Shown one piece after another: positions 14,975 through 40,056 of a DNA stretch of 55,651 nt (position 1 is its first letter; the number at the start of each line of letters is the position of its first letter). The DNA is taken from NCBI GenBank assembly GCA_947629925.1, contig CANRFO010000017.1, positions 1 to 55,651 of the forward strand, written 5' to 3'. The stretch comes from an uncultured Ruminiclostridium sp. (lineage in GTDB: Bacteria > Bacillota > Clostridia > Oscillospirales > Ruminococcaceae). Position numbers and translations under genes: made by a program. Below the pieces are notes generated by a model, which ran no database searches, had not been told where the DNA came from, and saw nothing but the letters and a program-made list of their open reading frames with translations.

Positions 14975-15208
14975 GTTTTACTACCCTATAAATTTACACT
15001 ACTCTCAAACGGAAACGTTTCAGACGTCGGAAAAAGTTCTGTTTTACTACCCTATAAATTTACACTACTCTCAAACGCAATTCCTGAACGCTTCAGATGT
15101 TTCAAAGTTTTACTACCCTATAAATTTACACTACTCTCAAACAACGACACGGGCGAGCTTTACAACGACGAAGTTTTACTACCCTATAAATTTACACTAC
15201 TCTCAAAC
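14975..15208 (-). CRISPR. leader-proximal CRISPR block: four 36-bp repeats, three spacers
   Basis: Identical repeats at 14975-15010, 15041-15076, 15107-15142 and 15173-15208 with three 30-bp spacers (15011-15040, 15077-15106, 15143-15172). The repeat is the same as in the distal block. Perfect repeats plus a promoter on the right side place the leader at 15209-15298. The spacer at 15143-15172 is G/C-richer than its surroundings and is open in a frame; origins could not be searched. The block ends exactly at the truncated ORF. Confidence 0.95.
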
Positions 15209-22356: not shown

Positions 22357-23284
22357 TTTCGTAAAGACCGTTCAATATCTCTGTCGGGTCGGCGTCCTTC
22401 AATATTTCTGACAGGCTTTTTGCGGGAGCTTCACTATTATCTTCCGTCGGCAAAAAGTGATACAATTCCATTATCTCTTTTATCTGCTCAGCCGTTTTAT
22501 CGGTTATTTCATCACCGACATGTATGTATATGCACTGCTCTTCCGCCTCCTCTATCGCCTCCTCGATAGCGTCCTCGTATTCCGCTTCCGTATCATAATC
22601 CTCAGGGTCTATTCCGTATTTCTCGAAATCCTCCTCATGCTCGCTTCGCCAAAATGCTTTTTGTTCCTCTATCTCCTCTTCGTATTCTTCCTCCGTATCA
22701 TAATCCTCGGGATCTATTCCGTATTTCTCAAAATCCTCCTCATGCTCACTTCTCCACCATTCTTTTGCATCTTCTATCGCCTCTTCGTATTCTTCTTCTG
22801 TATCATAATCCTCAGGGTCTATTCCGTATTTATCAAGATCCTCCTCATGCATACCTCTCCAAATCGCTTTTTCTTCCTCTATTGCCTCCTCGTATTCTTC
22901 CTCAGTTTCATAATCGTCGGGATTGACGTCAAAATCAAGCTGATCCTGTATATGCCTTTTCTTCCAACCGTATTTTGCGTCTATGAGCGCCTTGCTGTAT
23001 TCTTCTATCGTTTCGTAATTCTCTGGGAATATGTTATATTCCGCGCCATCGTGGCAGTATTTTCTCCAGTCATACGGACCGTAAGCGGCATTTCCGCCGC
23101 TGTCAAACGCTCCTTCTCCGCCAAGGATAGTCCCCAGCGTCGCCCAGTCGTCCATTGAATCATGACCCAGCCCCGCAGCTATCCCTGCCGCCTTGAAAGG
23201 GTCGGGATCGCCGTTACTGTCCTTGCTGGACTGAACTATGCCGTAAAGAAACAGGTCGTTTAAAATGTCTTCTATAAGTCCCAT
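22274..23284 (-). CDS. acidic repeat protein; likely 5' half of the split gene
   Basis: A 336-residue very acidic protein with a strong GGGAGG site before its ATG. The middle has four tandem copies of a 35-residue unit (core GIDPEDYDTEEEYEEAIE, then a WRSEHEEDFEKY helix); the last copy is degenerate. In DNA the units repeat exactly every 105 bases (22591, 22696, 22801, 22906). The N terminus (MGLIEDILNDLFLYG) has a short Gly-rich region around residues 30-65. No family was recognised. Near the C terminus the frame passes through the A12 tract and ends soon after (MRMHKCDIFR), probably out of its natural frame. Confidence 0.65.
   Translation of the reverse strand: MGLIEDILNDLFLYGIVQSSKDSNGDPDPFKAAGIAAGLGHDSMDDWATLGTILGGEGAFDSGGNAAYGPYDWRKYCHDGAEYNIFPENYETIEEYSKALIDAKYGWKKRHIQDQLDFDVNPDDYETEEEYEEAIEEEKAIWRGMHEEDLDKYGIDPEDYDTEEEYEEAIEDAKEWWRSEHEEDFEKYGIDPEDYDTEEEYEEEIEEQKAFWRSEHEEDFEKYGIDPEDYDTEAEYEDAIEEAIEEAEEQCIYIHVGDEITDKTAEQIKEIMELYHFLPTEDNSEAPAKSLSEILKDADPTEILNGLYESDFPNRRKYQALCEKKKMRMHKCDIFR
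22306..22317 (-). other. A12 homopolymer tract joining two ORFs
   Basis: Twelve T on the plus strand. On the minus strand the upstream frame reads GAA AAA AAA AAA ATG, the downstream frame AAA AAA AAA AAA TGC. Removing one A makes the two frames continuous. Confidence 0.85.
22591..22920 (-). repeat. four 105-bp tandem repeats within the acidic protein gene
   Basis: The segment starting TATCATAATCCTC on the plus strand recurs at 22591, 22696, 22801 and, in degenerate form, 22906. Each encodes one 35-residue unit. Such repeats can change in number by recombination. Confidence 0.85.
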
Positions 23285-36524: not shown

Positions 36525-38504
36525 TTATTTTGTTATTCCGCCGGGATTTTCCGCTTCGGGAGGAGCTTCGGGGGTGACCTCAGGCTGAATGTCAGTCTCA
36601 GGTTTATCCGCGCTTTCGGTTTCTTCAGGGAGAATTACCTCCGACTCGGACCAGATGACAGGCTTTTTCATCAGCCGTTCAAATTCGGCGCCGTCTATCT
36701 TTTCATGCTTCAACAGGTATTTAGCCAGCATATGGAGCTGATCTTTATGCCCTTCAAGAATATCCTTTGCCCTTTCGTAGCCTGTTTCGATAAGCTCGCG
36801 TATCTCTGAGTCTATCTCTGCGGCGATATTTTCGGAGTAGTTCCTGCCCTGTGAATAGTCTCTGCCAAGGAACACCTCCGCTTCGTCGTGACCGTATACT
36901 ACGGGACCCAGCTTTTCGCTGAAGCCGTATCTTGTCACCATGCTGCGGGCGATATTCGTAGCGCGTTCTATATCGTTTGATGCGCCTGTGGATATATCGT
37001 CAAGGATTATTTTTTCCGCTACGCGGCCGCCAAGGAGCGTAACGATATTTTCTTCCATCTGTGTTTTGCTTACAAAGCTCCTGTCATGCTCGGGAAGGGA
37101 CATCGTGTATCCGCCCGCCATTCCTCTGGGGATTATCGAGACCTGATGCACCTTGTCCTGAGAAGGGCAGTAGTAAGTGCATATCGCGTGACCCGATTCA
37201 TGATAAGCGGTGAGCCTGCGTTCCTTTTCTGTGACAACTCTGGATTTCTTTTCAGGACCTGCTACTACTTTTATCGTAGCTTCCTCGATATCTTCTTCTG
37301 TAACAGCTCTCCTGTTGGCTCTTGCGGCAAGCAGAGCGGCTTCGTTCACAAGGTTTTCAAGGTCTGCGCCCGTAAATCCCGCAGTGGATCTGGCAATAGT
37401 TGACAAGTCAACGTCGGGAGCCAGCTTTTTGTTTCTTGTATGGACTTTAAGAATAGCCTCGCGTCCTTTTACGTCGGGATAATTTACGACTATCTGTCTG
37501 TCAAAGCGTCCGGGACGAAGCAGAGCAGGGTCGAGAATATCGCGCCTGTTTGTAGCGGCGATAATGATTATTCCCTGATTTTCGGAGAAGCCGTCCATTT
37601 CCACAAGCAGTTGGTTCAGCGTCTGCTCGCGTTCGTCGTGACCGCCGCCGAGACCTGCGCCTCTCTGACGTCCCACTGCGTCTATCTCATCTATGAAAAT
37701 AATGGAAGGCGTATGCTTTTTCGCCTGATCGAACAGATCTCTTACACGGGAAGCGCCCACACCTACGAACATTTCAACGAAGTCCGAACCGCTTATTGAG
37801 AAGAAAGGAACGTTCGCTTCACCTGCCACAGCTTTTGCCAGCAGTGTTTTACCTGTACCGGGAGGTCCCATGAGCAGCACGCCCTTAGGCACATGAGCGC
37901 CTATGTCCTGATATTTGCGCGGATTTTTGAGGAAGTCCACTATCTCCGCCAGCTCCGCCTTTTCCTCATCGGCGCCTGCTACGTCTTCAAACGTGACTTT
38001 TTTCCCGCCTGAAGGCTGATTGCGGGTATTGGCTTTTGAGAACTGGTTCATTCTTCCGCCGCCTGAGGCTTGCCTCATAATAATGAAGGTAAATCCCACC
38101 ATAAGCGCTATCAGCAGAAGATAGGGCAGGAAAGTTGCAAGGAAGGAGTTGTCAGATACGGCGATATAGTCTTCTACCAACGGCTCGTCAGGGTGAGCGG
38201 CGTTGTAGCGGTCGCGGTAGCTCTCCCCGTCAAAATTGCCGTAAAGGTCGTTTATGAACAGACTTACATAAGGAACAAAGTAGACGCGTTCATTCGTTTC
38301 TCCCTCAAGAACATATTCCAGTTTTCCCGAATTAAGGTCGAGAGTATACGAAGACACCTCAAGCTTGTCGAAATGCTCCATGATCGAGGAATAGGATTCG
38401 ACCTCAGCTCTGGGAGTAACGGACCTGAGTATCGAGATAAGCCCGATTACAAGCAAGATAATTATAAGAATGTAAATGAGAGTTCCTCTTGTTTTTTTCT
38501 GCAT
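36525..38504 (-). CDS. ftsH: ATP-dependent zinc metalloprotease FtsH
   Basis: A 659-residue membrane-bound AAA+ protease that degrades damaged or unassembled membrane proteins and some regulators. Two membrane helices (about 8-26 and 125-145) flank an outer domain. The AAA domain has Walker A GPPGTGKT, Walker [12 protein letters not shown] and the second region of homology [19 protein letters not shown]. The zinc site is HESGH with a downstream Asp. A Pro/Glu-rich tail ends the protein. AAAGGCGGAAA precedes the ATG. The order tilS-ftsH is conserved in Firmicutes, but here the two are separated by a tandem repeat array that likely contains promoters. Confidence 0.96.
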
Positions 38505-38598
38505 GGATTTCCGCCTTTCTTTTTCAACACATAAATAAAAGGATATTTGCCGTATATCGGAAGATATTAAATATATTTTTTAGTCAAGTGTATATTAT

Positions 38599-38692
38599 TA
38601 AAAAAGAGTTTTTTGCGAAGCAAATGCGATTCCTCTGAACCGTTACAATGTTCTCAAACATTATAATAAAATTATTCCTCTTTAAGCCGTTT
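38599..38692 (-). ncRNA. candidate small RNA, unit 4
   Basis: Extended -10 TGTTATAAT (TATAAT at 38704-38699). The most diverged copy. Ends at a shorter hairpin (TTTGC-TTC-GCAAA, 38624-38612) followed by AAACTCTTTTTT. Read-through would enter ftsH. Confidence 0.5.
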
Positions 38693-38708
38693 GAGGTTAT
38701 TATAACAT

Positions 38709-38799
38709 AAGCAGAGCATTTTGCTTTGCAAAATGCGATACCTTAAAAAGTTAAAATGTTCTCAAACATCAAAATAATATTTTCCTCTTTAATCTGTTT
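38709..38799 (-). ncRNA. candidate small RNA, unit 3
   Basis: Extended -10 TGTTATAAT (TATAAT at 38811-38806). Ends at hairpin 38736-38716, where the loop has changed but the stem GCATTTTGC/GCAAAATGC is kept and even longer; the T-run is weak. Confidence 0.5.
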
Positions 38800-38815
38800 G
38801 AGGTTATTATAACAT

Positions 38816-38907
38816 AAGCAGAGCATTTTGTCTCGCAAAATGCGATACCTTAAAAAGTTAAAATGTTCTCAAACTTTTTAATAAAAATTTTCCTCTTTAA
38901 ACTGTTT
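38816..38907 (-). ncRNA. candidate small RNA, unit 2
   Basis: Extended -10 TGTTATAAT (TATAAT at 38919-38914), no good -35. Internal CTCAAAC/GTTTGAG pair. Ends at hairpin 38843-38823 followed by TCTGCTT, a weaker T-run. Confidence 0.5.
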
Positions 38908-38923
38908 GAGGTTATTATAACAT

Positions 38924-39016
38924 AAAAAGAGCATTTTGTCTCGCAAAATGCGATACCTCTGAACCGTTAAAATGTTCTCAAACTTTTTAATAAAAATTTT
39001 CCTCTTTAAACCGTTT
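38924..39016 (-). ncRNA. candidate small RNA, unit 1
   Basis: -10 TGATATAAT (39028-39023 for TATAAT) with a weak TTGCTT 17 bases before it. The transcript would start near 39016 and end after the hairpin 38951-38931 followed by TCTTTTT, the best terminator of the four. Confidence 0.55.
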
Positions 39017-39066
39017 GAGGTTATTATATCATATCACCGCAAAAAAAGCAAATCGAAAAATGAAAT

Positions 39067-40056
39067 TCATGTGTTTTTTTTCCGATATTTCTGGGGAATT
39101 ATCATAATTTCCGCCACGCCTTTTTTGACGCAGGCAAATTTATTTTTCTCAATATTGATTTTGCCCGTTCCCGCCGATATTATTTCAGCGAAACCGTTTA
39201 TTCTAAGCGCGCTCGGCTCAACGTCCCTTTCCCTCAGTATAAGTGAAATGGCGCGGTGGAACAGCGGCTCAGGCAAAATTTTCAGCTTTTCGGAGGAATA
39301 TTTTCCGTATTCGAGACGTGCGTCTTTCAACGCATTTGCGGCTTGTTCTTCGAGATACAGGCTGTCCTCGGTAAGCGCAGAAGTCATTCTTCCTACCCCC
39401 TCGTAAAAGGAGGGATTTATTTCAAGAAGCTTCGGCATAAGCTCTATCCGTATCTTATTTCTTGTATAAGCGGTGGAAAAATTTGTTTTGTCAGTCACGA
39501 ACTTCAGCTTATTTTCCTTGCAGTAAGCTTCTATCTCTTCTCTTGCGCAAAAGATGAGCGGTCTTATAAGATAGTCCCTTTTTGGCGGTATTCCGCAAAG
39601 ACCTTTCAGACCCGTGCCTCTAAGCATGTTCAAAAGCACCGTTTCCGCGTTGTCACAGGCGTTGTGCGCCGTAGCGACCTTTGCGCCGAACTTTTCCGCC
39701 GCCGCCGCGAAAGCTTCGTATCTCAGCTCCCTTGCCCGTTCCTCAATGCTTTCGTGTTTCTTTACCGAGCCTTTTACATCTACCGAAAACACTTCAAGCG
39801 GGACATTCATCTCTTTGCACAGTCCGCGTACATACGCTTCGTCGCCGTCGCTTTCCTCGCCGCGTAAATTGTGATTGACATGGCAGGCATAGACCTTTAT
39901 CCCAAGCTCATCCTCCAGCGATTTCAGCCCGTGGAGCAAAGTCACGCTGTCGGCTCCGCCGCTTAAAGCGACTACCGCATTATCGCCGCTTTTCAGCATA
40001 TCGTATCTTTTTACCGCGTCAAGGAGTTTTTCTCTTATTTTATCCGTTATGCACAT
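39067..40056 (-). CDS. tilS: tRNA(Ile)-lysidine synthase
   Basis: A 329-residue ATP-dependent enzyme that attaches lysine to the wobble cytidine of tRNA-Ile(CAU), an essential decoding change. The P-loop pyrophosphatase motif ALSGGADSVTLLHGL is at about residues 28-42. The catalytic domain ends near 215 with FSTAYTRNKIR. The C-terminal domain is short for the family. The start overlaps the end of dnaB by 17 bases, so it is probably coupled. It is transcribed on the minus strand with rnj, gdpP, rplI and dnaB upstream. Confidence 0.93.
   Translation of the reverse strand: MCITDKIREKLLDAVKRYDMLKSGDNAVVALSGGADSVTLLHGLKSLEDELGIKVYACHVNHNLRGEESDGDEAYVRGLCKEMNVPLEVFSVDVKGSVKKHESIEERARELRYEAFAAAAEKFGAKVATAHNACDNAETVLLNMLRGTGLKGLCGIPPKRDYLIRPLIFCAREEIEAYCKENKLKFVTDKTNFSTAYTRNKIRIELMPKLLEINPSFYEGVGRMTSALTEDSLYLEEQAANALKDARLEYGKYSSEKLKILPEPLFHRAISLILRERDVEPSALRINGFAEIISAGTGKINIEKNKFACVKKGVAEIMIIPQKYRKKNT

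Follow-up and report, generated by a model that had tools for sequence, protein, structure and literature searches.

Several insertion sequences recognize their targets by base pairing, and three of these (IS608, IS110, and IS1111) are described as being under development as programmable insertion tools (PMC5934647, PMC11208160, PMC11187229). IS608 inserts 3' of TTAC, which is retained in the left flank, and guides within the element recognize both the cut sites and the target by pairing (PMC5934647). As outlined in the same paper, an artificial 8-nt sequence was added 3' of the left hairpin of IS608 to extend its target recognition (PMC5934647).

Here we analyze a window of 55,651 nucleotides of DNA from an uncultured Ruminiclostridium sp., in which a tandem array of four self-contained small-RNA units had been predicted. 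We propose instead, and consider it likely, that each unit is one copy of an insertion element, non-coding and non-autonomous, of about 100 nt (a sister subfamily has units of about 160 nt), which enters 3' of a host extended -10 box and has an internal guide. This element is very small and lacks genes of its own, and it would use one guide for both its own end and its target, which is the -10 box of a promoter. Short, structured, dispersed, non-coding, and probably mobile repeats such as bcr1 of the Bacillus cereus group are like the present repeat in these respects; we know of no promoter-box target or internal guide in bcr1-type repeats. No title or abstract opening in the literature that we searched describes such an element, which is weak evidence, as subscription papers were mostly outside the scope of the search (PMC identifiers are given for the papers that we cite).

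Four tandem units between tilS and ftsH

On the minus strand of the window, at 38600-39031, four units of 107-109 bp follow each other between two genes that, from their sequences, we take to be tilS (upstream, 39067..40056) and ftsH (downstream, 36525..38504). Both genes are also on the minus strand and have orthologues by tblastn. The original prediction had described such units, each with an extended -10 box, and they were confirmed by the sequence, by Tandem Repeats Finder (38622-39033, period 108, 3.8 copies, 89% matches), and by a covariance model. All of the coordinates that follow are on the minus strand.

Unit 1 (38923..39031, or 109 bp with its left box; 130.2 bits, E = 1.7e-22) starts with the extended -10 box TGATATAAT (39023..39031), which is the host's, and the insertion point is immediately 3' of this box. 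The -35 hexamer is TTTGCT (39047..39052; 3 of 6 matches to TTGACA), from an old promoter downstream of tilS. Units 2 to 4 start with TGTTATAAT, and each of these boxes is the right box of one unit and the left box of the next: 38914..38922 is shared by units 1 and 2, 38806..38814 by units 2 and 3, and 38699..38707 by units 3 and 4. Unit 2 is at 38815..38922 (108 bp, 123 bits), unit 3 is at 38708..38814 (107 bp, 123.4 bits), and unit 4 is at 38600..38707 (108 bp, 117.7 bits).

The internal inverted repeat CTCAAAC/GTTTGAG, which we call the left stem, is present in all four units as had been stated (in unit 1, its arms are at 39013..39019 and 38977..38983, as seen in the sequence and by covariation), but the predicted minimum-energy RNA fold forms it in units 2 and 3 only. 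Next comes an 8-nt segment that we call the guide. It is ATTTTAAC in unit 1 (38966..38973), unit 2 (38857..38864), and unit 3 (38750..38757), and ATTGTAAC in unit 4 (38642..38649). The guide of unit 1 is complementary to GTTATAAT with one T:T mismatch, which is replaced by T:G in unit 4, and the variable letter (N) of the box that follows unit 1 pairs with this guide. The closing hairpin, GCATTTTG...CAAAATGC, was found in units 1 to 3, with the changed loop in unit 3 that had been noted earlier, but in unit 4 it is degraded (GCATTTGCTTCGCAAAAAAC), and the right box of unit 4 is degenerate (TTTAATAAT). In unit 1 this hairpin is GCATTTTGCGAGACAAAATGC (38931..38951), then comes TCTTTTTATG, and the hairpin was also a site in the terminator scan, which gave one further site other than the described hairpin. 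T-runs (CTCTTTTT) are present in the first and last units, as originally described, and absent from units 2 and 3 (CTCTGCTT).

In favor of four self-contained small-RNA genes in tandem are the extended -10 boxes, and the hairpins of units 1 and 4 with their T-runs are possible terminators. The units, when folded singly as RNA, also fold better than most shuffled sequences (z-scores of -2.2 to -3.3), and their structure is kept by covariation, as described below. Nevertheless, we find this explanation highly unlikely: T-runs are absent not only from units 2 and 3 but also from a long unit of the sister subfamily (L241), loops were replaced between the subfamilies, and further objections come from the insertion sites and from the pairing of the guide. 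Rfam had no matches at the gathering score in the window and in eight related loci, and the original prediction likewise knew of no named RNA family with this layout; with low scores allowed, there were 4 matches (E of 3.8 to 8.9), all of them under the gathering score.

The window also contains a tandem array with a 66-bp period at 14975-15208, whose unit begins GTTTTACTACCC...CTCTCAAAC and whose shape, as we see it, resembles that of a small CRISPR array. An imperfect 105-bp tandem repeat at 22560-23027 has a period that is a multiple of three and is possibly a repetitive protein-coding stretch.

A dispersed non-coding family

In the genome that the window comes from, a DNA search found related units at four further places, three of which were also found by the covariance model. 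There are five units at C8:58807-59345, two units and a degraded third at C10:33698-34013, one unit and a piece at C8:40055-40161, and a decayed single unit on C26. A covariance-model search of clostridial genomes had been suggested with the original prediction, and we ran one with a model (R1) built from 12 units. Of the 71 genus genomes, 13 had R1 matches, up to 21 per genome (in the window's own genome, 8 of the 21 matches are antisense overlaps). A second model (R2) adds G032, which R1 missed, and G271, which is from a different family. In total, the element is carried by at least 14 of the 71 genus genomes and by one genome of another family, and it is dispersed and non-coding. Across the order, R2 matched in 6 of 394 genomes and 2 of 168 genera; absences in the R1 and R2 scans of genomes are soft because stricter filters were used. 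A gapped core pattern was found in 5 of the 394 genomes, including four copies in G271, and the reversed control had no hits.

We scanned GTDB species genomes with an exact pattern that can match only the short subfamily, and this gave 29 stretches, from assemblies with nine accession prefixes. These assemblies are titled Oscillospiraceae, Clostridiales, Clostridia, or Bacillota, plus one Bacteroides. The label of the last (JAMPHV, titled Bacteroides sp., with L260 and L262) looks wrong. The element was not found in IMG/VR contigs with the exact pattern, nor in plasmids or phages.

The array is not a recent duplication in one strain, which had been named as a way for the original prediction to fail; by sequence comparison, the window repeat is a member of a dispersed non-coding family.

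The counts that we report for individual units come from a table of 103 units, or 118 model matches minus 3 antisense self-overlaps, 7 matches cut by contig ends, and 5 that were short or decayed. The counts for arrays are for 86 arrays, from 93 loci of which 7 weaker ones were left out (L034, L040, L049, L050, L067, L083, and L119); L006, which came from a DNA match, is included. Covariation was measured in an alignment of 51 units, which is 55 non-redundant units minus 4 with degenerate ends (unit 4 of the window, L095, L116, and L105).

The element lies next to host promoters

Most copies begin immediately 3' of a host extended -10 box, TGNTATAAT, with the host's -35 upstream. At 44 of 58 native boundaries, a -35 with at least 4 of 6 matches to TTGACA is found 16-18 nt before the left box; when the anchor was moved by 6-30 nt as a control, this was true of just 7 to 13 of the 58. 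Host boxes have A or G directly 5' of the TG in 60 of 62 cases, and T one position further 5' in 51 of 62. TRTG is a motif of Gram-positive promoters. The right edge is usually a second TGNTATAAT, which is followed by the host leader and usually by a gene: a crude test of open reading frames put a co-oriented gene next downstream of 60 of the 86 arrays, a frame in the opposite direction in 14, a contig end in 9, and nothing in 3. Judging by their sequences, the genes found downstream presumably include ones that encode methionyl-tRNA synthetase, cytidylate kinase, homoserine dehydrogenase, D-Ala-D-Ala ligase, GlmS, and PurE, and in G032 there is what we take to be the gene for ribosomal protein S2.

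Sites without the element were also identified. For the insertion L028 (in G029), the joined flanks are 93% identical to G005 across the junction (positions 1-324), and G005 has one box, TGATATAAT, with the host leader directly after it. G000 is also empty at this site (88% over 13-324). Three sites gave 17 aligned orthologues that lack the element and have a single box: 6 at ddl, 6 at L029, and 5 at L028. (Two of the 17, L193 and L206, were placed by multiple alignment rather than by BLAST.) The single box is TATACT in three of the L029 orthologues. R2, at E up to 0.1, matched none of the 17 empty stretches. Two other sites have five orthologues, four of which failed to align through the promoter; the fifth, L207, looks empty and was left uncounted.

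The site of the array in the window is also informative. In five relatives (G005, G029, G008, G033, and G001), the interval between tilS and ftsH contains a gene that we believe to be hpt, behind a promoter. The -35 and the box of this promoter correspond to the sequence immediately left of unit 1: the hexamer TTTGCT is kept, at 17-18 nt from the box, in G005, G029, G008, and G001, and is TTTGAT in G033. All five relatives have one box at this site and are without the element. In the window, hpt is absent between tilS and ftsH (38505-39066), and there is no convincing match to it elsewhere in the window, so the array starts at what was the hpt promoter and lacks a clean right edge. G035 also seems to be without hpt between tilS and ftsH, and its assembly has a run of N there. 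In G029, a GC-rich hairpin insertion of a different kind, about 136 nt long (L122, on C7), comes directly after TATGTTATAAT of the hpt promoter, between tilS and hpt. G005 is without this insertion, and its TATAAT joins TGCAATATTGG; this is a second type of repeat at the same kind of site.

The alternative that was offered originally is a multi-promoter leader that boosts ftsH. In a wider form, the repeats would be kept because they raise the expression of ftsH and of other genes. The extended -10 box that most right ends leave behind is as this explanation would have it, and so is the direction of the downstream genes, which are co-oriented in 60 of the 74 arrays for which a downstream frame was called. 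However, the downstream genes are varied, the aligned orthologues do without the element, and guide and box still pair in a case where the box has ceased to be a -10 (GCAATAAC, see below). For ftsH itself, the last right box in the window is the degenerate one. We therefore regard a function as a leader as very improbable, even more so than the small-RNA array. Because most right ends leave an extended -10, the extra ftsH promoters may be a side effect.

One guide matches the element's own box and the host's

The guide, ATTTTAxC, is directly 3' of the left stem and is complementary to GNTATAAT save for a central T:T mismatch. In 88 of 92 scorable units from the 103-unit table, the letter x pairs with N of the right box of the same unit, and all four letters are used; shuffling within genomes gave a mean of 58.1 and a maximum of 73 in 20,000. 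In 51 of 66 first units, x also pairs with N of the host box (shuffles had a mean of 31.5 and a maximum of 44). The guide does not match N in the other 15 host boxes and the other 4 right boxes. For internal left boxes, the 23 matches of 26 are hardly above shuffles (mean of 21.1; 2,905 of 20,000 were as high). These counts omit 3 units without a scorable guide, boxes that scored under 6, and 8 left edges that resemble the end of another unit.

In 14 units, the left N and the right N differ, and the guide fits the right one in 12, the left one in 1, and neither in 1. Since the guide follows the right box where the boxes differ, the right box must be the element's and the left box the target. 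As judged from these sequence patterns, then, the element inserts 3' of extended -10 boxes and bears its own right box, and its guide matches both.

An ordinary MITE of a DDE transposon would also have the box on both sides, as a target-site duplication at TGNTATAAT, and N does agree between the two boxes in 41 of 55 cases (shuffle mean of 26.5). We considered that this agreement might reflect target-site duplication and dropped the idea because the right N follows the guide, in 12 of the 14 differing cases, and not the host box. L028 is an example: G005, G000, and the left box all have A as N, and the right N is T, which is fitted by the guide. Furthermore, the window units start with AACCTC and end with CTCTTTTTA, so terminal inverted repeats are absent. 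Of all the explanations that we weighed, this one seems the least probable.

The structure is also conserved by covariation. In the 51-unit alignment, the guide is paired with N of the right box in 50 of 51 units (UA 21, CG 20, AU 8, GC 1; L095, whose right N does not fit its guide, is among the units left out of this alignment). In the left stem, 98% of cells are paired and 5 of 7 pairs changed on both sides, and the left structure scores above every one of 500 shuffles in all five measures of covariation. The right structure does so in three measures, and the other two are unexceptional (29 and 147 of the 500 shuffles). Between box and stem there are three columns, which are AAC/AAC and unpaired in 32 of 51 units; others are AAT/ATT (6), AAC/GTT (3), and AAA/TTT (1). 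In the inner AAC/AAC columns, 28.8% of cells are paired, and these columns are unpaired in most units. The stems and the guide-box pairs thus covary, which supports selection on the structure of the nucleic acid; the original prediction had suggested selection on RNA structure. The proposed hairpins form only partly in predicted single-strand folds.

The covariation bears on the small-RNA genes as well. The CTC/GAG of the left stem covaries, and the usual spacing from the -10 puts the start of the transcript 3' of the first bases of this stem, which would therefore lie upstream of the transcript; the guide also pairs with the left box, which the unit's own promoter would not transcribe. Because of these bases, the 17 empty orthologues, and a first -10 box that is the host's, we set aside the array of small-RNA genes; with the copies dispersed among genomes, self-contained small-RNA units are not the best account of the data.

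Some details of the pairing were recorded with an earlier guide finder that misplaced the guide in a few units (86/93). With this finder, the T:T mismatch is T:G in 6 of 96 units; for left boxes that end in C, the guide starts with G in 8 of 8; and where the guide starts with G, the right box still has T in most cases (7 of 9). The central T:T mismatch (box position 6 against the middle of the guide) is nearly invariant in the 51-unit alignment, being unpaired in 51 of 51 left boxes and 50 of 51 right boxes. It may be kept because a perfect match would place TATAAT on the opposite strand. On the same stem, the loop of the right hairpin can read GCAAAGC or GCTTTGC, as if flipped, for example in L001:1604-1719 and L003:1504-1621.

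A sister subfamily and the growth of arrays

G014, G032, and G271 have a sister subfamily of units of about 160 nt, with the same skeleton and with quite different, GC-rich loops, so that the loops were replaced between the subfamilies. In the 18 long units with a recognizable right box, N is paired in 16 and is a G:T wobble in 2 (L312 and L320); because we located the right box via its fit to the guide, these units serve as an illustration of the rule and are no test of the pairing. At a host site that is common to G014 and G032, one genome has two full units and a truncated third and the other has a single unit. The host box is the same (TATTATAAT), and the right boxes (GATATAAT) fit the guide. 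In an old array in G014, the boxes are GCAATAAC and the guides are GTTTTTGC. There are several compensating differences, and the box is no longer a -10, so pairing can outlast promoter function.

Unit 4 of the window and a mid-array unit on C8 have features in common (the ATTGTAAC guide), and the neighbors of unit 4 differ from it. This likeness suggests that units may enter arrays by insertion at a right box. In G092, three units have an identical score (112.3 bits each), which suggests that local amplification may also occur. In L244 (G016:C84), L248 (G093:C41), and L289 (G092:C22), other hairpin-rich sequences have seemingly inserted in the left loop of the unit; L244 and L248 keep both arms of the stem and the guide.

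How the element might move

We propose that the guide picks the target and that, during excision and insertion, it would pair in turn with the left box, within the left hairpin, and with the right box, within the right hairpin. This pairing would be on single-stranded DNA, as by the guides at the ends of IS200/IS605 elements, and an enzyme that acts in trans would cut 3' of TATAAT. Each copy ends in a box that fits the guide, and new copies could therefore land beside existing ones, which would give arrays. Insertions are probably made tolerable by the restored -10 box. If the units are guide-bearing insertion elements, then we favor single-strand, HUH-like movement, and we give it about an even chance; its chief rival is RNA-guided movement, as with bridge RNAs or seekRNAs.

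A Y1 transposase (PF01797) was not found in the window's own genome. Among the genus genomes, PF01797 is present in 6 of 13 carriers by R1 and in 14 of 58 others (7 of 14 and 13 of 57 if G032 is counted as a carrier). A Y1 transposase could have been lost or could be too divergent for the model. The DEDD transposase family PF02371 is present in 7 of 13 R1 carriers and 11 of 58 others, and 6 of the 13 carriers are without it. The window's own genome has one marginal match to PF02371 (21.3 bits, at the cut-off), and there is none in G035 or G079. G035, estimated to be 100% complete and with 17 R1 matches, has neither family, and the searches for the two families found no enzyme that is common to all of the carriers. 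Both families are somewhat more common in carriers, which leaves room for either.

We also looked for related ends near these transposases. Ten Y1 loci had no left end and no guide, with only loose matches to the right end. Eleven more stretches (8 with PF02371, 1 with the marginal match, and 2 with Y1) had no match to the guide and a few loose 12-nt matches to the left end. One loose left-end match is beside TGGTATAAT in the Y1 stretch L338 (G092). Downstream of left-end remnants, no longer element with the same ends was found within the stretches that were examined, of which L286 and L291 stop at the end of the contig and L292 nearly does.

In the chief rival, the same guide-directed element would be moved by an RNA-guided recombinase like those of IS110 and IS1111, and RNA from the unit, made from the host -10 or from the junction of a circle, would pair with the target and donor boxes. 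When the right end of a unit is joined to its left end, this gives an extended -10 that could transcribe the guide, which may be compared to the joined ends described for IS110 and IS1111 (PMC11208160, PMC11187229). Many short units end in a T-run, and the higher frequency of PF02371 in R1 carriers also favors this mechanism. On the other hand, only one strand on one side of the target is paired here, and seekRNAs and bridge RNAs are described as matching both strands (PMC11208160, PMC11187229). The 46 host right flanks have only a bias towards A at +1 and +2 (30 of 46 and 27 of 46). G035 has its 17 matches without PF02371, and none of the nine PF02371 stretches (one of them marginal) has a match to the guide. 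Also, with the usual -10 spacing, part of the left stem lies upstream of the position where the transcript should start. Overall, we judge an RNA-guided recombinase to be unlikely, with an appreciable chance of being correct.

More tentatively, and with some doubt, we suggest that the repeat is a guide-programmed cassette in which a single 8-nt guide specifies both its own right end and a promoter's -10, which spreads and stacks in tandem, and which would be moved by an enzyme outside the known guide-using transposases. As the guide aims at the -10 box, many promoters are open to one family of repeats, those of housekeeping genes among them. From the covariation at N, we predict that altering x in the guide should alter which promoters are chosen.

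Comparison with known systems

Like the present repeat, REP and REPIN sequences are short, non-coding hairpin repeats between genes and are thought to be moved in trans, by RAYT (TnpAREP), according to published descriptions (PMC8266576, PMC2817692, PMC3116915, PMC3733652). In contrast to those descriptions, the present element is about 100-160 nt, has a guide to the -10 box, and mostly starts at one, and the four window units do not have the tetranucleotide GTAG or CGTC at the foot of a hairpin.

In IS110 and IS1111, as in our proposal, a guide that is encoded by the element pairs with both the target and the donor ends, and there is a promoter where the ends meet (PMC11208160, PMC11187229). 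The guide RNAs described in these papers have segments for both strands (PMC11208160, PMC11187229), whereas the present element has one guide, which matches only the GNTATAAT side. It also differs from the IS110 and IS1111 elements described there in that there is no transposase gene inside it and PF02371 is absent from those 6 R1 carriers.

The IS200/IS605 family, as represented by IS608, is alike in more ways: insertion is exactly 3' of a short target that is left in the left flank, without a target-site duplication, both ends have hairpins (here, by covariation), and guides act by base pairing (PMC5934647). Unlike the IS200/IS605 elements, the present element was not accompanied by a Y1 transposase in its own genome. 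IS608 is described as having two 4-nt guides, each 5' of a hairpin, whereas the present element has one 8-nt guide, 3' of the left hairpin, for both ends; this natural guide is in a similar place to the artificial 8-nt sequence that was added to IS608 (PMC5934647). In comparison to IS608 as described there, the right end of the present element repeats the target, so that arrays are possible, and the target is a promoter element.
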